Shown in pieces: positions 9,675 to 19,789 of a stretch of 37,262 nt of DNA (its first letter is position 1; each line of letters starts with the position of its first letter). Location of the stretch: the NCBI GenBank assembly GCA_027071075.1, contig JALSUU010000072.1:1-37262 (forward strand). Reading direction: 5' to 3'. Under the pieces are notes generated by a model that was given only the letters and a program-made list of their open reading frames with translations, was not told where the DNA came from and ran no database searches. The DNA is from Sulfurimonas sp. (GTDB taxonomy: Bacteria; Campylobacterota; Campylobacteria; Campylobacterales; Sulfurimonadaceae). The translations under genes and the position numbers were made by a program.

Positions 9675-10196
9675 ATGGTGAATGATAATATTATTGTAAT
9701 TGGATTTATGGGTGTTGGTAAGGGGAGTGTAGCGAGAGAAGTCATAAAAAACTCAAACTATATTGCCATAGATACGGATGATCTTATAGAGAGTATGGAA
9801 AACAAAAAAATAAAGTCAATTTTTGAAGAGAGTGGCGAAGAGTACTTTAGAAAACTTGAAAAAAGAGTTGCAAAATGGCTTGAAAAAAGTGTTCAAAACA
9901 GCCTTGTTTCTACAGGTGGAGGCTTTTATAAACAAAAAAACCTCAAAAAAATAGGTATAATAGTGCTTCTTGATTCTCCTTTTGAAGCAATTATAAAGAG
10001 AATAAAAGAGCATCCAAATGCAGAGAAAAAGTTAAAAAAGAGACCACTTTTGAGTGATCTCAAGGCAGCAAAGAGACTCTATAATGAGAGACGACCAGAG
10101 TATCTCAAACTTGCTGATATCGTAATAAATGTCACAGATAAGAGTGCATTTGATTGCTCAAAAGAATTACTTAAAAAGGTAGAAAAATATGCGTAA
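9675..10196 (+). CDS. aroK: Shikimate kinase AroK
   Basis: AroK phosphorylates shikimate at the 3-hydroxyl in the chorismate pathway. The 173-aa protein shows the shikimate-binding DTDDLIE (D34 region), FRKLEKRV with its arginine, STGGGFY for substrate and the lid arginines in KKRPLL. The P-loop reads GFMGVGKGSVAR: the residue after the invariant lysine is glycine instead of Ser/Thr, with serine one place later. The rest of the active site is intact, so this is more likely a lineage variant than a dead enzyme. Start ATG 9675 has AAGGAG only 2 nt away; GTG 9678 is an alternative with better spacing. It overlaps the next gene by 8 nt. Confidence 0.93.
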   Translation: MVNDNIIVIGFMGVGKGSVAREVIKNSNYIAIDTDDLIESMENKKIKSIFEESGEEYFRKLEKRVAKWLEKSVQNSLVSTGGGFYKQKNLKKIGIIVLLDSPFEAIIKRIKEHPNAEKKLKKRPLLSDLKAAKRLYNERRPEYLKLADIVINVTDKSAFDCSKELLKKVEKYA

Positions 10197-10689
10197 AATA
10201 GTATTATATATAGCGTTGTTATTTACAACATCACTCATGGCAAATGAAGCGGTTAAATTTGGCTTAAACCCTTCAATAAAAACCCAAACAAAGAATGAAA
10301 TTCACTGGGCAAAAGATTTTCAAAGTGGAATTTCTCAAGCTACTATGGCAAATAAGCCAGTGTTATTTGTATTTTCTCGTCACACTTGTAAATACTGTGT
10401 GATTTTAGAAAAGACAACTTTTTCAGATAAAAGAGTTATTAAAGCACTCAACAAGGATTTTATACCTATTATCTCATATTCAGATGAAAATGATTATACT
10501 CCAAGAGAGTTATGGAGACCAGGTACCCCTACTATTTGGTTTTTACTTCCAAACGGACAACCTATGTTTCAACCACTTATGGGTGCGGTTGGAGAAGAGG
10601 GCTTCTTAGAAGCTTTAGCAATTGTAAAAAAAGAGTTTGATAAAAGAGTAAAAGAAGCAGAAGCGAAGAGCAAGGGAGCAAAAAAATAA
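10189..10689 (+). CDS. Periplasmic thioredoxin-fold protein
   Basis: A 166-aa exported protein with signal peptide (cut after about residue 18, SLMA|NE) and a thioredoxin fold of the DUF255/SoxW-like type. The redox motif is C67-KY-C70 in VFSRHTCKYCVILEKTTFSD, and GTPTIWFLLPNG holds the cis-proline (P114). The CKYC dipeptide and the KTTFSD sequence after it resemble periplasmic thiol-disulfide proteins that reduce or repair other envelope proteins; partner unknown. The C-terminus is lysine and alanine rich. It overlaps aroK by 8 nt and its TAA shares a base with the hisD ATG, so it sits in an amino-acid biosynthesis operon with no obvious link. Confidence 0.85.
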   Translation: MRKIVLYIALLFTTSLMANEAVKFGLNPSIKTQTKNEIHWAKDFQSGISQATMANKPVLFVFSRHTCKYCVILEKTTFSDKRVIKALNKDFIPIISYSDENDYTPRELWRPGTPTIWFLLPNGQPMFQPLMGAVGEEGFLEALAIVKKEFDKRVKEAEAKSKGAKK

Positions 10690-11981
10690 TGATGTTTATT
10701 AACTCAAGTGATGCAGAGTTTTCAAAAAACTTTGATGAGTTACTTAATCGTGGAAAGATGGATATTGCTCATGTGAGTACTATAGTTGGTGGTATTATCT
10801 CTGAGATTCAAGAGAGAAAAAATAGTGCCCTTAAAGAGCATATAGCAAAGTTTGACAACTGGACACCAAAAAGTGATGCAGACTTAAAAATAGATACAAA
10901 CTCTATGAGTGAAGCTTATAGAAATTTAGATGTAAAGTTAAAATCTGCTCTGCATTTAGCATATGACAGAATTAAAGCCTATCATGAAAAACAAAAACCG
11001 AAATCTTGGTTTGATACAGAGGCAAATGGAACTATTTTAGGACAGAAAGTGACTGCTGTTGATAGTGCGGGGCTCTATATTCCTGGTGGGAAAGCTGCCT
11101 ATCCCTCTTCACTGCTTATGAATGTAATTCCAGCACAAGTTGCAGGAGTTGAAAATATCGTAGTGTGTACACCAACACCAGATAATGAGCCAAATGAGCT
11201 TCTTTTAGCTGCATGTCATTTATGTGGTGTGAGTGAAGTCTATAAGGTTGGTGGTGCATCAGCAATCGCTGCCATGGCGTATGGAACGGAGACTGTTCCT
11301 AAGGTAGATGTTATTACAGGACCGGGAAATATCTTTGTTGCAACTGCAAAAAAGATGGTTTTTGGGGATGTTCATATTGATATGATTGCAGGGCCGAGTG
11401 AGATTGGTGTTTTAGCTGATGATAGTGCAAATGCTAATCACTTAGCAATAGACTTACTCTCTCAAGCAGAGCATGATGAGATGGCGAGCTCTATTCTTAT
11501 CACTCCATCACAGAACTTAGCTAATGCAGTAAAAGAAGAGATAGCGAACTGGTTAGTCAAACTTCCTCGCCAAGAGATAGCAAGAAAGTCCATAGAAGAG
11601 CGAGGTGCTATTATTGTAACTGAGACTATGGATGAAGCGATAAAGCTTATGAATGAGATTGCTCCTGAGCATTTAGAAGTGGCTACTATGAGTCCTTTTG
11701 AACTTTTGCCTTTTATAAAACATGCAGGTGCTATCTTCTTGGGGCATAATACTCCTGAAGCTATAGGTGATTATGTAGCAGGACCAAACCATACACTTCC
11801 AACAGGTGGAACTGCTAAGTTTTACTCTCCTCTTGGAGTTGAAAACTTTATGAAAAAAAGTTCTATTATTTCATTTAGTAACAAGGCTATAAATGAAATA
11901 GGGGAAGAGTGTGCGCTCATTGCAAACACGGAAGGTTTAACTGCGCATGAACAATCTGTAAGAGTCAGATTAAACTCTTAA
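10689..11981 (+). CDS. hisD: Histidinol dehydrogenase
   Basis: HisD catalyses the last two oxidations of histidine synthesis, histidinol to histidine, with NAD and a zinc ion. The 430-aa protein is of standard length. Signatures include AGLYIPGGKAAYPSSLLMNV, VYKVGGASAIAAMAYGT, VDVITGPGNIFVATAKK, MIAGPSEIGVLAD, the zinc-site LLSQAEHDEMAS (Q and H ligands), IAPEHLEV and the terminal LTAHEQSVRVR. Start ATG 10689 overlaps the previous stop (TAATG); ATG 10692 is possible. It is the last gene of the hemerythrin run, followed by a strong stem-loop. Confidence 0.97.
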   Translation: MMFINSSDAEFSKNFDELLNRGKMDIAHVSTIVGGIISEIQERKNSALKEHIAKFDNWTPKSDADLKIDTNSMSEAYRNLDVKLKSALHLAYDRIKAYHEKQKPKSWFDTEANGTILGQKVTAVDSAGLYIPGGKAAYPSSLLMNVIPAQVAGVENIVVCTPTPDNEPNELLLAACHLCGVSEVYKVGGASAIAAMAYGTETVPKVDVITGPGNIFVATAKKMVFGDVHIDMIAGPSEIGVLADDSANANHLAIDLLSQAEHDEMASSILITPSQNLANAVKEEIANWLVKLPRQEIARKSIEERGAIIVTETMDEAIKLMNEIAPEHLEVATMSPFELLPFIKHAGAIFLGHNTPEAIGDYVAGPNHTLPTGGTAKFYSPLGVENFMKKSSIISFSNKAINEIGEECALIANTEGLTAHEQSVRVRLNS

Positions 11982-12201: not shown

Positions 12202-12840
12202 ATGCAATTAGGTTTCCTAGTTGATTTACACCTGTGTATGGGTTGTAAAGGTTGTGAGATCGCATGTAAGGTGGAGAATGAAGTTCCACTTAGTACATGG
12301 AGATTACGTGTTAAGTATGTAGATGTGGGTACTTTCCCAGAAACGAAGAGAACTTTCACACCTCTAAGATGTAATCATTGTGAAAATGCACCTTGTGAGA
12401 GAATTTGTCCAGTATCTGCGCTCCATTATATTGAAAATGGAATTGTAAATATTGATAAAGAGAGATGTATCGGTTGTGCTGGTTGTGTTATGGCCTGTCC
12501 TTATGGAGCGATTTATATTGACCCTGAAACGCAAACAGCTGATAAGTGTACTTACTGTGCACACCGTATTGCATCATCAATGATGCCGGCGTGTGTTGTA
12601 GCTTGTCCAGTTGAAGCAAATATCTTCGGAGATTTAGACGATCCTAAGTCAAATATCTCAAAATATATGCAAGATCATAGAGATGTACAGGTTCGTAAAC
12701 CTGAGAAGGGCACAAATCCTCATCACTTCTATGTTGGAGCAAGTCAAGTTAATCTTAATCCTCTTGCATCAAGAAGAGAAGAAGGGTATAACTTATTTAA
12801 CAAAATTACAAAACTTCCATTAGGAGGGCATCACGAATGA
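12202..12840 (+). CDS. Electron-transfer subunit with four [4Fe-4S] clusters (PsrB/TtrB/DmsB type)
   Basis: The 212-aa ferredoxin-like subunit passes electrons between the catalytic subunit and the membrane quinol subunit. Four complete cysteine sets are visible: C12-C15-C18-C22 (CMGCKGCEIAC), C57-C60-C65-C69, C89-C92-C95-C99 (CIGCAGCVMAC) and C116-C119-C131-C135. No signal peptide is present; in this family the subunit is carried across the membrane with the Tat-bearing catalytic subunit. The start is supported by AAGGAG 5 nt upstream. The stop overlaps the next gene's ATG (ATGA, 12837-12840). It is the first gene of the operon; the order B-C-A differs from the usual A-B-C of psr and phs operons. 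Confidence 0.9.
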   Translation: MQLGFLVDLHLCMGCKGCEIACKVENEVPLSTWRLRVKYVDVGTFPETKRTFTPLRCNHCENAPCERICPVSALHYIENGIVNIDKERCIGCAGCVMACPYGAIYIDPETQTADKCTYCAHRIASSMMPACVVACPVEANIFGDLDDPKSNISKYMQDHRDVQVRKPEKGTNPHHFYVGASQVNLNPLASRREEGYNLFNKITKLPLGGHHE

Positions 12841-13760
12841 TACATGAAACTTTAGCAGCAACAAATGCTGTAGTAACTTTGGACGTACCATTACCAGACG
12901 TATTTTGGGGCTGGTTTGTTACTATGAATATGTGGGCGAAAAGTATAGGTACAGGTCTTGTCTTTATGCTTTTCTTATTACTTAGAAAAAATTCTAGTGA
13001 AATGAGTGGACTTAGAACTCCTGCAATAATCGTTTCATTTATTATGATGAATGTTTTCTTACTTTTCACACTGGCTGATTTACATCAACCATTTAGAATG
13101 TGGCATATCTTTTTCTATCCTCATTGGACTTCAGCAATTACTGTTGGTGCATGGATGGCAACTATCTTTGTTGGTCTTGAGTTTGTAATGGCAGCGATGA
13201 TGATTAGAAAAGATAAATGTTTATTAACAAAAAATGCAACAGAATCTTTTGATAAATTACTTTTCTGGGTAACGCTTTTAGCGATTCCTGTTACTCTTTA
13301 TACTGCGGGTATTATGGCAGAAGCAACAGCTCGTGAACTATGGCAAATGCCAACTGAATCTGTACAGATGATTTTAGCAGCTACACTAAGTGGTTCTGCA
13401 GCTATTATCTTACTTGGTGGTTCTAAGCTTAGTGACGAGACAAAAAACTTCTTTGCTTCAATATTAGGTCTAAGTGCACTTCTTGCGTTTATCATCTATA
13501 TGTCAGAGTATATTTTCGGTTCAATGAAAGCAGAAGAAGTTACAGCAATTTTAGCTTATGTGAAAGGTGATGGCGAATACGCAACTATGTTCTGGATAGG
13601 ACAATGGGTAGCTTATATTTTACCAATGGCTCTTGTCGGACTTTACAGAGTAAGTAAAAGTAACAGTATTTTAACACTTGCAGCTATTTTAGCAATCGCA
13701 GGTCTATGGGTAGTTAAACATGTTTGGCTAGTTATCCCACAATTATTACCGTTGAGTTAA
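12837..13760 (+). CDS. NrfD/PsrC-type membrane quinol-binding subunit
   Basis: A 307-aa integral membrane protein with about eight helices, fitting the NrfD/PsrC family that exchanges electrons with menaquinol on the periplasmic side and needs no haem. Typical features are the early WGWFVTMNMWAKSIGTGLVF helix, LADLHQPFRMWHIFFYPHWTSAITVGAW (histidine, arginine and tryptophan block conserved in PsrC-like proteins), and LYTAGIMAEATARELWQ. The acidic and basic residues in the last block line the quinone/proton region of the family. It overlaps the ferredoxin subunit by 4 nt and is followed by the catalytic subunit after 13 nt with AAGGAG as ribosome site. Confidence 0.9.
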   Translation: MIHETLAATNAVVTLDVPLPDVFWGWFVTMNMWAKSIGTGLVFMLFLLLRKNSSEMSGLRTPAIIVSFIMMNVFLLFTLADLHQPFRMWHIFFYPHWTSAITVGAWMATIFVGLEFVMAAMMIRKDKCLLTKNATESFDKLLFWVTLLAIPVTLYTAGIMAEATARELWQMPTESVQMILAATLSGSAAIILLGGSKLSDETKNFFASILGLSALLAFIIYMSEYIFGSMKAEEVTAILAYVKGDGEYATMFWIGQWVAYILPMALVGLYRVSKSNSILTLAAILAIAGLWVVKHVWLVIPQLLPLS

Positions 13761-13773
13761 GGAGAATATATAA

Positions 13774-16700
13774 ATGTATTTACAAAGTAGAAGAACATTT
13801 TTAAAAGGTGCTGCATTCAGTGTTGCTGGTGTAGCTATTGCTAAGGGAGTTTTTGCAACAGATGCTGTCGCAAAGTCTGTTAGTGAAAGTAAGTTTACTA
13901 ATACTCCTGATACAATTTCATTTTATCCAGATGTAAAAGAGTGGAATAGTTTTAAAGAGTTAGATGGTACTGACTGGAAGCGTGGTGGTATTGAACGCCA
14001 TGGTGTTCGTAGTGAATCTAATCCTGATGGTATCCAAGTAAATGACTATACAATCGTTCCTACAGTTTGTTCAAACTGTGAAGCTGGTTGTGGTCTTACT
14101 GCATGGGTTAATACAAATGAGTTTGAAAAAGGTATATTAACAGTTCGTAAATATATGGGTAACCCACTTCATACGGGTTCTCGTGGTAGAAACTGTGCAA
14201 AAGGGTATGCTGTAACTTCTCAAATGTACGATCCAGATCGTATTCCATTCCCAATCAAGCGTGCACCAGGTTCTAAGCGTGGTGAAGGTAAGTGGGTTCG
14301 TGTTACTTGGGATGAGGCTATGGCTGCAATCGGTAAGAAAATGCACGACACACTTGCAAAAGGTGATGAAGTTTCTAAAAAGTCTATCATGTACCATGTT
14401 GGTCGTCCAAATGAAAATGGTTTTGGTCCTCGTGTACCACAATCATTAGGTATTGATGGGTATAACTCACACACAAACATCTGTTCAGCAGGTGCTCGTG
14501 AAGGTACTATACAGTGGGCAAATGATGATAGAAACTCTCCAGATTGGGGAAATGCAGATTTAATCTTCTTACAATCATCTCATGCAGCAGATGCAGGTCA
14601 CTACTTCCAACAATCAGCTGGTTTAATCGCTGATTCTAGAAAGCGTGGTGCAAAAATGGTTGTTATTGACCCTCGTATGTCTAACTCTGCAGGTATGGCT
14701 GACTTATGGATTCCTGCATGGCCAGGAACCGAAGCGGCACTTTACCTTTATTTAGCAAACCGTATCTTCCATGAAAAGAAAAAAGATGGTTCAGATATAG
14801 TAGACCATGAATATGTAAAAGAGTGGATGAACTGGGATAGATTGATGGCAAATAAAGCTTATCTTAAAAAGATGGTTGGATATGGCTATATTTCTAAAAT
14901 GCCAAGAGATGATTCTTATGAGTCATTTATTGAGTTAGCACAAGAGCTCTATTCCCCATATACTAAAGAGTTTGTAGTTAAAGAGTGTAAGCTTGAAGGG
15001 ATGGAGTATAAATTAGATGAGTTATGGGAACTTTTTGTTCCTGCTGGTGCTAAGATAGCATCTTATCTATGGCGTGCCGGAGCAATTGGTCACCGTGGTG
15101 GTTGGATGAATACTCGTGCTGGTTTCTTACCTCTTGCTCTTGTTGGAGCTATGCGTGGTGATATCGGTGGTGTTGGTATGCACCACTGGCATGAGATTTC
15201 AGTTGCTGGTAAAGGTGATAAAGCTACTGTAGCTGGGGAGCACCCTGCCAAAACTGATGCATGGAATGAAATTGCTTGGCCACCTGAGTATCCAATAGCA
15301 ACTTATGAGATGGGCTTTATGATGCCTCAACTTATGATGGATGATGAGTGGCATGCAAAATGGACAAAGCGTGGTCTTAAGATTCCTAAATCTATGGCTG
15401 TATATGTTCCAAGAATGCACAATCCACTTTGGATTAATCCAGATGGATTTAGATGGATGGAAGCTCTTAAACGCGAAGACAAATTTGAATTAACATTCAA
15501 TTTATCTCCAACTTGGTCTGAGACTAACTGGTACTGTGATTATGTACTTCCTGTTGGACTTGCTGGTGAGAGAAATGATCAACAATCAACTCCATCTAAA
15601 CCAGAGCAAAGAATTGAGTTCCGTCAAGCGGTTCTTCGTGTAGCAGCTGAAAAGATGGGCTGGAAAGCAAAAGATCCAACTCGTGCTACTCTTGAAGCAC
15701 ATATGAAGTTTGGTCTTGGTGAAGTATGGGAAGAGTCAGAGTTCTGGCCTAACCTTATCATGCACCATGTAGATGCAGATGGTAGCCTTGGTGTTGCAAA
15801 ATACTGGGCAAGTAAAAAAGACCCATCTCGTTGTGTTACTGTTCCTGAATGGTTTGACACAGCTATGAGTCTTTTACCAAAACTGAATGATGCAGCACAT
15901 AAGATGTATCCAGAAGAAGAGTATCCAGTATATAGCTATATGAGAGATCATGGTGCTTGGACTGAGAAAACTGATGTTTATAAACCTCAAGAAGAGGAAC
16001 TTAAAGTTGATAGAGAGTATGTATATGCTCATGGACACAAGTTTCCAAGACATGAAGTTGAAAAAGATGAGTTTGGTGCATTATGGGTTCAAGAGGGAGA
16101 TTTCAAAAAATCTATTGGTATCATAAAAGATAATAAAGTACTTGCTGGTTTCCATACTTTAAGTAAAAAACTTGAGTTCTTCTCTGAGTGGTTAGCTGAT
16201 GAGTGGAAATGGCCTGAGTATGCTATTCCTATCTATCCAAGAACTGATGCTGAAAATGATAAGATGGTACATCTAGTAACACAGGTACACCATAAACATA
16301 TGCATGCAGAAAATGAATTTGCACTGAACACTATTTATCGTTTACCATACAATATTCATACGCGTTCTGTAAACTCTAAACACCTTATGGAGATTTCACA
16401 AAACCATAATCCTGTTTGGATTTACACAAAAGATGCTGAAAAACTTGGTATTAAGCGTGGTGATGCAATAAAAGTACAAATTCAAGATACTTTAACGGGT
16501 ATTAAGAGTGGTTACTTTATCGCTATGGCTGTACCAACTGAAGCAACTCGCCCAGGTGTTTTAGCGTGTTCACACCATGCTGGTCGTTGGAAACTTAAAG
16601 ATGCTGTTAATATTCCAGGATTTGAACACCCACTTGGTATTATGAGTCTTGGTTCACCTAAAGTGGATATGACAAATGATGGTAAAGTTGGAACTATGAC

Positions 16701-17064
16701 AACTACTGAGGGAATTAAGCCTCACGAAGCATGGCAGTTTAAAGAGTACAATAAAGATTTAGATGATATCTGGTGGAATGGTTTAAGTGGTGCATGGCAA
16801 AATGCTGTTGCTCCTTGTCACCCAGATCCAATTGCGGGTAACCACGGTTGGCATCAAAAAGTTATTATCACTAAAGCAGGTGCTGATGATAAGATTGGTG
16901 ATATTAGTGTAAACTATGAAAACAACTTCAAAGTTTATCAAGGATGGAGAGATCAGTTGACTCGTCCACTGAACGCATCTGATAAACTTCGTCGTCCGTA
17001 CCATATTAAACGCCCAGTTAAACCAAGCCAAAAAGCTTATAGAGTTAACATAAAAGACGTTTAG
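13774..17064 (+). CDS. Tat-exported molybdopterin oxidoreductase catalytic subunit (Psr/Soe/Ttr class)
   Basis: The 1096-aa protein is a DMSO-reductase family enzyme. A Tat signal SRRTFLKG (5-12) with a short hydrophobic stretch directs it to the periplasm. The N-terminal [4Fe-4S] site is C99-C102-C106-C141 (CSNCEAGC ... NCAKG). In YNSHTNICSAGAREGT, C237 occupies the position of the molybdenum-ligating cysteine, as in polysulfide, thiosulfate and tetrathionate reductases. The central MPT domains and C-terminal dinucleotide-binding domain (from about 860) are complete. It is far longer than Wolinella PsrA (about 765 aa); a C-terminal block with PCHPDPIAGNHGWHQKV and VYQGWRDQLTRP resembles what I recall of SoeA-type sulfite dehydrogenases and long Psr-like proteins. 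So polysulfide, tetrathionate or sulfite are candidate substrates; direction is unresolved. Confidence 0.88.
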   Translation: MYLQSRRTFLKGAAFSVAGVAIAKGVFATDAVAKSVSESKFTNTPDTISFYPDVKEWNSFKELDGTDWKRGGIERHGVRSESNPDGIQVNDYTIVPTVCSNCEAGCGLTAWVNTNEFEKGILTVRKYMGNPLHTGSRGRNCAKGYAVTSQMYDPDRIPFPIKRAPGSKRGEGKWVRVTWDEAMAAIGKKMHDTLAKGDEVSKKSIMYHVGRPNENGFGPRVPQSLGIDGYNSHTNICSAGAREGTIQWANDDRNSPDWGNADLIFLQSSHAADAGHYFQQSAGLIADSRKRGAKMVVIDPRMSNSAGMADLWIPAWPGTEAALYLYLANRIFHEKKKDGSDIVDHEYVKEWMNWDRLMANKAYLKKMVGYGYISKMPRDDSYESFIELAQELYSPYTKEFVVKECKLEGMEYKLDELWELFVPAGAKIASYLWRAGAIGHRGGWMNTRAGFLPLALVGAMRGDIGGVGMHHWHEISVAGKGDKATVAGEHPAKTDAWNEIAWPPEYPIATYEMGFMMPQLMMDDEWHAKWTKRGLKIPKSMAVYVPRMHNPLWINPDGFRWMEALKREDKFELTFNLSPTWSETNWYCDYVLPVGLAGERNDQQSTPSKPEQRIEFRQAVLRVAAEKMGWKAKDPTRATLEAHMKFGLGEVWEESEFWPNLIMHHVDADGSLGVAKYWASKKDPSRCVTVPEWFDTAMSLLPKLNDAAHKMYPEEEYPVYSYMRDHGAWTEKTDVYKPQEEELKVDREYVYAHGHKFPRHEVEKDEFGALWVQEGDFKKSIGIIKDNKVLAGFHTLSKKLEFFSEWLADEWKWPEYAIPIYPRTDAENDKMVHLVTQVHHKHMHAENEFALNTIYRLPYNIHTRSVNSKHLMEISQNHNPVWIYTKDAEKLGIKRGDAIKVQIQDTLTGIKSGYFIAMAVPTEATRPGVLACSHHAGRWKLKDAVNIPGFEHPLGIMSLGSPKVDMTNDGKVGTMTTTEGIKPHEAWQFKEYNKDLDDIWWNGLSGAWQNAVAPCHPDPIAGNHGWHQKVIITKAGADDKIGDISVNYENNFKVYQGWRDQLTRPLNASDKLRRPYHIKRPVKPSQKAYRVNIKDV

Positions 17065-17147: not shown

Positions 17148-17798
17148 ATGAATAATGATTTAAAACAAGAACAGATTGCGCGTATCAATTTTTATGCACT
17201 ACTTTCAAGATTAGTGATGAGTGAAGTAGACGAAGGGCTATTAAAATCAATAGAAGAAGATGAGAATATGCTTTCATTTTTTCCAACTTACAAAGATTGG
17301 GATAGAAGAGCTAATATGAATAGAGAAGATTTAATTCAAAAATATCTTAATGTTGATTTTACTAACCTTTTTTTACTCCACCTAGTTCCTTATGAATCAT
17401 TTTATATGAGAGAAGATCAAATGATGGAAACAGGTGGTGATAATCCAGTACAACAAATTTTTTCTGAGCTAGATTTTAGGGTTGAACTTGATAAAGCACG
17501 CGTTATGAGTGCTGATCACATTGGTATTGAGTTAGAGTTTATGTATATGCTATGCGATTCCGAATTGAAAGCACTCGAAGATGGAGATCTTGAAGCAGCA
17601 GAAAATATAGCAAGAATTCAGTATGGATTTTTAAATGAGCATATTATGCAGTGGGCGCCTATGTATCTATTGAATGTAAAAAGTGAAGCTGGAACAGCAT
17701 TTTATTATGATGTTGCAGATTTAGCATTGGAGTTTATTATGAGCGATTATGAGTATGCTACGCAACTAAAAAATAGTGGATACAAATACGAAATATGA
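17148..17798 (+). CDS. TorD/DmsD-family chaperone for the molybdoenzyme
   Basis: A 216-aa all-helical cytoplasmic protein. The hallmarks of the TorD family are visible: an N-terminal RINFYALLSRLVMSEVD, the middle VPYESFYMRED and the DHIGIELEFMYMLC helix (approximately residues 121-135). Such proteins bind the Tat signal of a particular molybdoenzyme, hold it for cofactor loading and release it to the Tat translocon. The neighbouring Tat-signalled catalytic subunit is its obvious client. No membrane segment or cysteine cluster is present. An ATGA overlap joins it to the polyferredoxin gene. The 83-nt gap before it contains a stem-loop. Confidence 0.88.
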   Translation: MNNDLKQEQIARINFYALLSRLVMSEVDEGLLKSIEEDENMLSFFPTYKDWDRRANMNREDLIQKYLNVDFTNLFLLHLVPYESFYMREDQMMETGGDNPVQQIFSELDFRVELDKARVMSADHIGIELEFMYMLCDSELKALEDGDLEAAENIARIQYGFLNEHIMQWAPMYLLNVKSEAGTAFYYDVADLALEFIMSDYEYATQLKNSGYKYEI

Positions 17799-18895
17799 GT
17801 CTTTTAACGCTAGATATTTCAAAATGTGTACATACCTCTAATAAATTTGCTATCTGCGATAAGTGTGTAGATGTTTGTCCTGTAGAAACAATCAAACTAC
17901 AAGATTCACAAATATCTTTTACTCCTAGTGAGTGTGTAGGTTGTGGTGGATGTGGTGCAGCTTGTCCAACTGCTGCTTATTCACTAGATACTTTTAAACC
18001 TATTAACTATATTTTTCAGTTTTTAGAATTTGATAATGAAGTCTTAACCTGTAAAGATGAAGAGTTACCCTGTATTGCATCATTGAGTGTTGAAGAGCTT
18101 TTATCTATGGCACTGATTTCGCAAAAAAAGATAGTACTTGATATTGGTCCATGTGCTGAGTGCCCAATAGCATCTACAAATTTAGCAATCATAAAAGAGA
18201 GAGCCGAAGAGGTTAACTTTTTATTAGAAGCGATGATGCAAGAAAAAGTGTTAAAGGTAGAGACGCTTAATCATATCCTTAAGAGTGAAAAAGCAGGACT
18301 TAGTCGTCGAAAATTACTCTCTAAAGAGGGTGTAAAATCTGCTTTAAGCATAAAAGAGCAGTTGCAAAATGAAGTAAAAGCAAGTGATACTACTACAAAA
18401 GAGCATCATGTAAGTGCTCAAGATATAGCGAAAATAAAAGAGAAAAAGCTTCCAGATAGAAGAAGTCTTCTTTTAATGGCGATGAAGCGTGCTTCAGTTC
18501 CAGAACAGTTTCACACTATTGATATAGAGGATATATCATTTATCTCTCAAAAAAATCTTGATGAAGAGACATGTACAAATTGTCAAATGTGTTATAGAAT
18601 TTGTCCGACAGGAGCACTCAGCTCTGATAGTCGGGCGAGTATGATTAACTTTAATCCATTGGCATGTGTTCAGTGTCATAGCTGTCATGATGTTTGTGAA
18701 CCTGATGCATTAACCTTGAGAAAAACATTTTCATTAAGTAACTTTTTTGATCCAAAAATAGAGACTTTAGTAAGGTTTACTATTAAGCGATGTGATGAGT
18801 GTGGAAACTTTTTCACCTATCGTGGTGGGGAGATGATGTGTGATCGTTGTAGAGTTGAAGAGGAAGAAGCAAAAGAGTTATGGGGGATTTCATGA
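17795..18895 (+). CDS. Polyferredoxin with four or five Fe-S sites and a C-terminal zinc ribbon
   Basis: A 366-aa protein without signal peptide. N-terminal cysteines make two ferredoxin sites: C11/C21-C24-C28 and C47-C50-C53-C57. A central set C86, C93, C120, C123 (ELPCIAS ... DIGPCAECP) could hold another cluster. The C-terminal pair is C260-C263-C266-C270 and C291-C294-C297-C301. A zinc-ribbon-like C333-C336 / C349-C352 ends the protein. Between the halves, LSRRKLLSKEG (169-179) resembles a Tat twin-arginine box although it is internal. It is related to NapF-like accessory ferredoxins and likely feeds electrons to, or matures, the molybdoenzyme in the cytoplasm; the exact role is not known. 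It overlaps both neighbours by 4 nt. Confidence 0.82.
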   Translation: MSLLTLDISKCVHTSNKFAICDKCVDVCPVETIKLQDSQISFTPSECVGCGGCGAACPTAAYSLDTFKPINYIFQFLEFDNEVLTCKDEELPCIASLSVEELLSMALISQKKIVLDIGPCAECPIASTNLAIIKERAEEVNFLLEAMMQEKVLKVETLNHILKSEKAGLSRRKLLSKEGVKSALSIKEQLQNEVKASDTTTKEHHVSAQDIAKIKEKKLPDRRSLLLMAMKRASVPEQFHTIDIEDISFISQKNLDEETCTNCQMCYRICPTGALSSDSRASMINFNPLACVQCHSCHDVCEPDALTLRKTFSLSNFFDPKIETLVRFTIKRCDECGNFFTYRGGEMMCDRCRVEEEEAKELWGIS

Positions 18896-19326
18896 GTGAG
18901 CAAAGAGATGATATAGAGACAATGAATGCAGATGATTCTATACACAACAAAACAAAATTATTTGGTTTAATAGCGGAACATGCAAGTCCAAATAGACTTT
19001 TTGTTATGTTAAACAAAGAGATTAAACTGCATAATGCAGATGCAATGATGATACCCATGAATATACGAGAGGATGATTTTTTCTTTACACTTTCAAATAT
19101 GAAAAAATCACATGTGAATGGAGCATATATAGCACAAGAGTATCAAGAGCGTGCTGTTGAACTTTTAGATGAAGCAGATGAGTTTGTCCAAGTTTACAAT
19201 AAATGTGATTTTGTTATTCGCCTAGGTGAAAAACTTATAGGAACTTATTTAGGAAAAAATGGTGTGTTAGAGGGTGAATCTTTAGCAGAAGAAATATTTA
19301 AAAATTATATACAAGAGAGAAATTAA
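18892..19326 (+). CDS. Small protein resembling a shikimate dehydrogenase N-domain without catalytic residues
   Basis: The 144-aa cytoplasmic protein has an order of elements that parallels the substrate-binding domain of AroE. TKLFGLIAEHASPNRLF fits the first strand and helix; NADAMMIPMNIREDDFFFTL fits the second strand with the EDL helix; SHVNGAYIAQEYQERAVELLDEAD fits the G-x-NVTxPxK segment; and LGEKLIGTYLG fits G-x-L-x-G-x-N-T-D-G. The key residues are altered: no SxSP serine pair, no catalytic lysine and no NTD aspartate, and no NADP domain follows. The match is my own pattern reading. The start ATG 18892 overlaps the previous stop (ATGA) with GGGGGA upstream; ATG 18880 is less likely. 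It may bind a small ligand or assist maturation; unknown. Confidence 0.7.
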   Translation: MSEQRDDIETMNADDSIHNKTKLFGLIAEHASPNRLFVMLNKEIKLHNADAMMIPMNIREDDFFFTLSNMKKSHVNGAYIAQEYQERAVELLDEADEFVQVYNKCDFVIRLGEKLIGTYLGKNGVLEGESLAEEIFKNYIQERN

Positions 19327-19327
19327 G

Positions 19328-19789
19328 ATGGATATGAAAGACTTAAACGAATTTAGAAATGAATTTGAAGCAATGCAACAACAGGCTATGCAAGGTGCAT
19401 GTGCTGATGGAAGTTGTATAGAAGATGATGACTATGAAGATTATCCTGACTATTTACGCGCTATATATTCAGAAATTATGCCCCCATTTAAATCAGGTAT
19501 TACAATTTCGCGTTGGGACCTAAAGAGAATGGCAGCACAACTTGATGAGTCGTTTGCACTTGATGTACGAGAGAGAATGTTCAAAAACTTTATGCAGTGG
19601 GTAGCTACACCTGCAGATATGCAAGCTGTAATTGGTGAGTTTAAAAATCTTATGGATATGAAATGTGATATTTATCGTGAATACTCAGAACGATATCCAT
19701 CAACAAAAGAGATTTTTGATACTAAAATCGAAAAAGCAGATAAAGCAAAAAAATATCTTGATAAAGTATATGTAGAGTTTTTTACTTAA
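19328..19789 (+). CDS. Acidic helical protein of unknown function, last gene of the molybdoenzyme operon
   Basis: A 153-aa protein beginning one nucleotide after the previous stop. It is acidic and predicted to be mostly alpha-helical. A short stretch MQGACADGSCIEDDDYEDYP holds its only N-terminal cysteine pair, C25 and C30, followed by an aspartate and tyrosine rich patch. There are no membrane segments and no signal peptide. I do not recognise it. The position after a chaperone, a ferredoxin and the AroE-like protein suggests a role in assembly or regulation of the enzyme; that is inference from context only. Its 3' end overlaps batD on the other strand by 8 nt. Confidence 0.65.
   Translation: MDMKDLNEFRNEFEAMQQQAMQGACADGSCIEDDDYEDYPDYLRAIYSEIMPPFKSGITISRWDLKRMAAQLDESFALDVRERMFKNFMQWVATPADMQAVIGEFKNLMDMKCDIYREYSERYPSTKEIFDTKIEKADKAKKYLDKVYVEFFT

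Follow-up and report, generated by a model that had tools for sequence, protein, structure and literature searches.

A shortened AroE-derived pseudoenzyme accompanies a PsrA/TtrA-type molybdoenzyme in Campylobacterota and is probably a maturation factor

To our knowledge, the proteins known to mature molybdoenzymes use few folds (TorD/NarJ, NapD, and FdhD/FdhE), and we know of no AroE-family paralogue, including HI0607, YdiB, and 5-ketofructose reductase, that serves as a molybdoenzyme accessory. For the Tat-exported nitrate reductase, a maturation role of small cytoplasmic proteins together with a cytoplasmic ferredoxin (NapD/NapF) is experimentally supported (PMC10609526), and the word "shikimate" is absent from that review of nitrate reductase accessory proteins. 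PMC10045233 describes a group I PsrA (PsrA1B1C1) that every Sulfurovum carries and whose active-site cysteine is at position 257 in NBC37-1; in S. indicum PsrA1, the same paper numbers this cysteine 171 and reports no Tat motif. Term searches of that paper found no AroE-like neighbor, and literature searches on an AroE-like, molybdoenzyme-linked protein likewise returned nothing.

The stretch of DNA analyzed here (the window; 37,262 nucleotides of a Sulfurimonas sp. contig) carries an operon for a molybdoenzyme (Table 1). The solved structure nearest to its catalytic subunit is PsrA (2vpw, E 1.8e-32), and the enzyme is probably the group I PsrA reported from Sulfurovum, a likeness that rests on occurrence and on the position of the active-site cysteine, which is residue 251 in genome family f4 (codes of the form f1, f4, f8, f11, and f13 denote genome families). 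The f4 catalytic subunits (loci L119 and L121) bear an RRxFLK Tat leader as well as Cys 251, and a truncated gene start may be the cause of the discrepancy in S. indicum PsrA1. The gene order FeS subunit, NrfD-like subunit, molybdoenzyme, TorD, polyferredoxin, AroE-like protein, ORF153 is kept in f1, f4, f8, and f11, and f13 retains TorD-polyferredoxin-AroE-like. Shikimate kinase-like (aroK), thioredoxin-like, and hisD genes occupy 9675 to 11981, before the operon, as they do in many related loci. Promoter and terminator scans gave no signal clearly above shuffled sequences.

Table 1. Coordinates of the molybdoenzyme operon and of the parts of the AroE-like gene in the window
Feature	Position	Strand	Size or residues	Basis
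4Fe-4S electron-transfer subunit, TtrB/PsrB-like	12202..12840	+		NCBIfam TtrB E 7e-61, below cut-off; operon conservation
NrfD-like membrane subunit (TtrC-like)	12837..13760	+		NCBIfam TtrC E 3e-9, below cut-off
Tat-exported molybdopterin catalytic subunit, PsrA/PhsA/TtrA type	13774..17064	+	1096 aa	RRTFLK leader; Pfam Molybdopterin and Fe4S4
TorD-family chaperone	17148..17798	+		PF02613 E 1.7e-16; TorD model E 4.8e-16
Cytoplasmic polyferredoxin, C-terminal CxxC...CxxC tail	17795..18895	+	366 aa	Fer4 domains, alignment
AroE-derived pseudoenzyme gene, short form	18892..19326	+	144 aa	ORF; AroE profile and fold
AroE substrate-binding-domain fold	18952..19245	+	residues 25-122 (numbering from 18880)	AlphaFold model, VIA-align to 2hk9
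Most conserved block, DAMMIPMNIREDDFFFTLSNMKKSHVNGAYIAQEY	19039..19143	+	residues 54-88	family alignments
C-terminal helix, kept after Rossmann-domain loss	19276..19311	+	residues 133-144	H133-144 in model
ORF153, accessory protein without a named family	19328..19789	+		conserved in module

Two neighbors of the AroE-like gene deserve comment. No Pfam family scores over its cut-off against ORF153 of the window, and NCBIfam yields nothing at E ≤ 0.001; weak RhoGEF hits among the Pfam models were set aside as helical-composition noise, and comparison with TorD and AroE profiles gave no relation. It is present in 55 of 296 genomes, in some via a paralogue, and is tied to the module as closely as the AroE-like gene. 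In the polyferredoxin of one f4 subgroup (g49; L118, L119, L121), several cysteines of the N-terminal clusters are lost (for instance, CVGCGGC is replaced by GVEAAAC), and judging by these residues it probably holds fewer clusters.

The AroE-like ORF lies between the polyferredoxin gene and ORF153 and was found at the position that the earlier note had given (plus strand, 144 residues); the four AroE-like motifs picked out there (FGLIAEHASP, IPMNIREDD, VNGAYIAQEY, and LGEKLIGTYLG) are all present. Its ATG overlaps the polyferredoxin stop codon as ATGA (18892 to 18895). Another in-frame ATG upstream, at 18880, would yield 148 residues; 18892 is the likelier start, because several close relatives start at the second methionine. 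Residues 42 to 101 match positions 13 to 72 of the Shikimate_dh_N profile (PF08501) at E 0.001 and 19.7 bits, below the Pfam curated cut-off of 27, and seven NCBIfam AroE models give weak, in-order matches of up to E 1.4e-4. A phmmer search of the PDB with the window protein alone gave no match, AroE being reached by family profiles only: the profile of the long-form relatives finds Aquifex AroE (2hk9) at E 3e-8. Shikimate_dh_N is matched individually by 15 of 28 diverse family members (best E 2.2e-7), and the Rossmann-domain model Shikimate_DH by 3 of these 28. In profile-profile comparison with 21 Campylobacterota AroEs, the long forms score 98.4% over 228 columns and the short forms 93.5%; the short forms of f8, a second genome family, give no significant match to the AroE profile by themselves (1.3%), and only their gene position and their match to the short forms of f1 (97.7%) tie them to the family.

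The predicted structure agrees with these matches. In the AlphaFold model of the window protein (pLDDT 83.7), residues 1 to 21 are disordered, and the substrate-domain elements, from strand 26-32 to strand 118-122, mostly exceed a pLDDT of 90. Foldseek places the model in the shikimate dehydrogenase family throughout the matches listed (E 3.6e-8), VIA-align superposes 128 residues on 2hk9 (Z 17.4, rmsd 2.1), and among the matches listed by both programs the folds are AroE-family only. Model residues 20 to 147 span AroE residues 1 to 254 with only these 128 residues aligned; the protein has thus retained the substrate domain and the C-terminal helix of AroE and lacks what lies between them. Neither outcome that the earlier note named as refuting, a predicted structure unlike the AroE N domain or the lack of any profile hit, was observed. 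The window protein family and AroE share common ancestry; chance resemblance was rejected because fold (Z 17.4) and profile (15 of 28 members) agree.

The AroE active site is lost. In the window protein, according to an alignment with the AroE of the same genome (L001), the positions of S14, S16, T61, K65, N86, and D102 are occupied by N, L, A, Q, D, and G, respectively, which bears out the previously claimed absence of the serine pair, the catalytic lysine, and the N-terminal-domain aspartate. K65 is missing from all aligned family members except L123, which itself lacks most other catalytic residues. The family alignments reveal other residues retained almost throughout (N61, I62, S77, and E87), and conservation is strongest from IPMNIRxDD to E-[YF], a block near-invariant across long and short forms that, by alignment, falls at the sheet edge used by AroE for shikimate binding. 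The dN/dS of the AroE-like gene has a median of 0.099 and a maximum of 0.20 (131 pairs with usable dS), so the short form is maintained by purifying selection. A truncated or broken aroE was likewise rejected, given a dN/dS of about 0.1, the occurrence in many species, and the genuine aroE located elsewhere in the window genome.

The window protein has no C-terminal NADP-binding Rossmann domain and in this respect is the standalone N domain that the earlier note described, but this state is derived. Most relatives are full-length AroE-like pseudoenzymes of about 250 to 290 residues, and many of the 80 fetched from Campylobacterota contigs have this length and align along the whole of AroE; their Rossmann domain persists in degenerate form, with a degenerate glycine loop in most, and the substrate-domain catalytic residues are already gone. 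The model of a long form (pLDDT 92.6) matches full-length 2hk9 by Foldseek at E 6.7e-16 with a TM score of 0.71. On the gene tree of the neighboring polyferredoxin, at least five long/short switches are found, with four loci (L058, L059, L069, and L077) scored as "none" by the tree script although the AroE-like gene is present there. The tree itself gives no direction; the switches are read as Rossmann losses because AroE itself is long. The f4 short proteins also retain a C-terminal stretch resembling the last helices of AroE. The short form is therefore a derived one from which the Rossmann domain was excised and in which the C-terminal helix was retained.

The gene accompanies the molybdoenzyme, as had been suggested from the single locus: it occurs in 48 of the 52 Campylobacterota genomes that have the Mo-enzyme and in 1 of the 244 that lack it, these 296 genomes being related and hence not independent trials. 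Family hits (E ≤ 3e-21) are separated by a clear gap from hits to true AroE (E ≥ 7e-14); the family-profile searches also bring weaker second matches, and all 20 of those fetched carry the true-AroE motif N[VI]TxPxK. A plasmid search with the family gave annotated shikimate dehydrogenases only, among the annotated matches listed. The sole genome with the gene and no Mo-subunit (G199) is a fragmented assembly, and in one genome with the reverse pattern (G047) the operon is interrupted by a contig end. The other three (G139, G250, and G251; loci L132, L133, and L134) belong to one genus and have an operon that is intact minus the AroE-like gene, with the polyferredoxin followed by ORF153. This genus represents a natural deletion, which indicates that the protein is not universally needed and offers a useful in vivo control.

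In most Sulfurimonas, TorD-polyferredoxin-AroE-like-ORF153 forms a separate locus, and one copy of the Mo-subunit lies elsewhere in the genome; the AroE-like gene thus travels with the maturation genes. Some loci (L140 to L145, L147, L148, L150, and L151) carry a second module with TorD, a paralogous polyferredoxin, an ORF153-like gene, another Mo-enzyme of about 966 residues, and a beta subunit. This second module has no AroE-like gene, indicating that the association is with one enzyme.

Taken together, we consider the AroE-like protein to be, with fair probability, a repurposed AroE paralogue that acts as a dedicated maturation factor of the PsrA/TtrA-type molybdoenzyme. Most likely it serves as a scaffold or docking protein while the Mo-subunit receives its cofactor or is proofread, as the analogy with known accessory sets suggests. 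An ancestor within the Campylobacterales would have recruited an AroE paralogue to serve, in the cytoplasm, a single periplasmic molybdoenzyme (PsrABC/TtrABC type) as its dedicated accessory, with catalysis lost early and the Rossmann cofactor domain lost later, several times independently. The face from IPMNIRxDD to E-[YF] of the remodeled substrate domain, at the former shikimate pocket, would serve as the docking or scaffold surface, and the protein, the translationally coupled polyferredoxin, and TorD may act together on the apo-catalytic subunit before Tat export, in a step comprising Fe-S and Moco loading and proofreading. The cytoplasmic site, the binding of partners, and the maturation step are what we infer for this protein. 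For the wider proposition, that a metabolic dehydrogenase became an assembly factor and obligate partner of a molybdoenzyme, its cofactor domain excised at least five times and its dead substrate domain kept, we see an even chance.

The earlier note had offered two guesses at the role, maturation factor and ligand sensor, and the former is favored because the gene stays with TorD and polyferredoxin at the split loci. As a ligand sensor, the remodeled pocket would bind a small molecule (e.g., a sulfur compound or a cofactor precursor) and thereby gate maturation or expression. What the conserved face binds could indeed be a ligand and not a protein, as N61-I62, E87, and the aspartate at the former N86 fall, by alignment, at the AroE shikimate site; however, the loop after strand 1, the site of the serine pair, is not conserved, the protein has no DNA-binding or signaling domain, and at split loci its gene accompanies assembly genes and no regulator, which makes this reading unlikely. 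A little less probable still is a structural scaffold through which the protein and the polyferredoxin form a stable electron-transfer complex in the cytoplasm, one that feeds electrons to the pathway during turnover and has no maturation role. The two genes adjoin at nearly all complete loci, besides their overlap in the window, as such a complex would suggest, but the Tat leader of the catalytic subunit presumably takes it to the periplasm, no membrane link for a cytoplasmic complex is seen, and the presence of TorD within the set points to assembly.

An enzyme, whether residual or new, or an unusual part of the shikimate pathway would make sense of the aroK-thioredoxin-like-hisD cluster in the window and in many relatives, with a shikimate kinase 2 kb upstream of the operon. 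We regard this as very improbable: the catalytic residues are gone throughout, the cofactor domain is repeatedly lost, and the genome has its genuine aroE. In the fetched stretches of f4, f8, and f11, several of which reach only about 1 to 2 kb past the operon, aroK and hisD are absent, and a pathway role argued from the nearby aroK was rejected because aroK is not seen beside the operon in these other families. Lastly, a vestigial gene kept by operon inertia, as might be suggested by the genus that lacks it and by the recurrent loss of the Rossmann domain, is scarcely credible against a dN/dS of about 0.1 and a block that is near-invariant in long and short forms.

If the maturation role is correct, an AroE-derived factor would add a new fold to those of the molybdoenzyme maturation proteins, and it would point to a protein required when an abundant enzyme of the sulfur-respiration type from deep-sea Campylobacterota is to be produced in another host. 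The family is also a clear example, within one bacterial order, of an enzyme repurposed step by step, from full enzyme to two-domain pseudoenzyme, to single-domain accessory protein, and to loss, and would thereby document how a pseudoenzyme evolves in natural stages.

Compared with AroE (PF08501 plus PF01488), the family has the same fold, the same element order, and detectable sequence similarity, with long forms matching over the full length; it differs in that the Ser, Thr, Lys, Asn, and Asp residues are replaced, new conserved residues have appeared, the Rossmann domain is degenerate or missing, and the gene is molybdoenzyme linked and stands alongside a true aroE. HI0607, YdiB, and 5-ketofructose reductase are divergent AroE paralogues of the same fold, found among the structure matches, but unlike the window protein they keep the full two-domain dehydrogenase architecture. 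The accessory set of the periplasmic nitrate reductase, NapD/NapF, parallels the set of TorD and cytoplasmic ferredoxin encoded here, whereas NapD itself has a ferredoxin-type fold.
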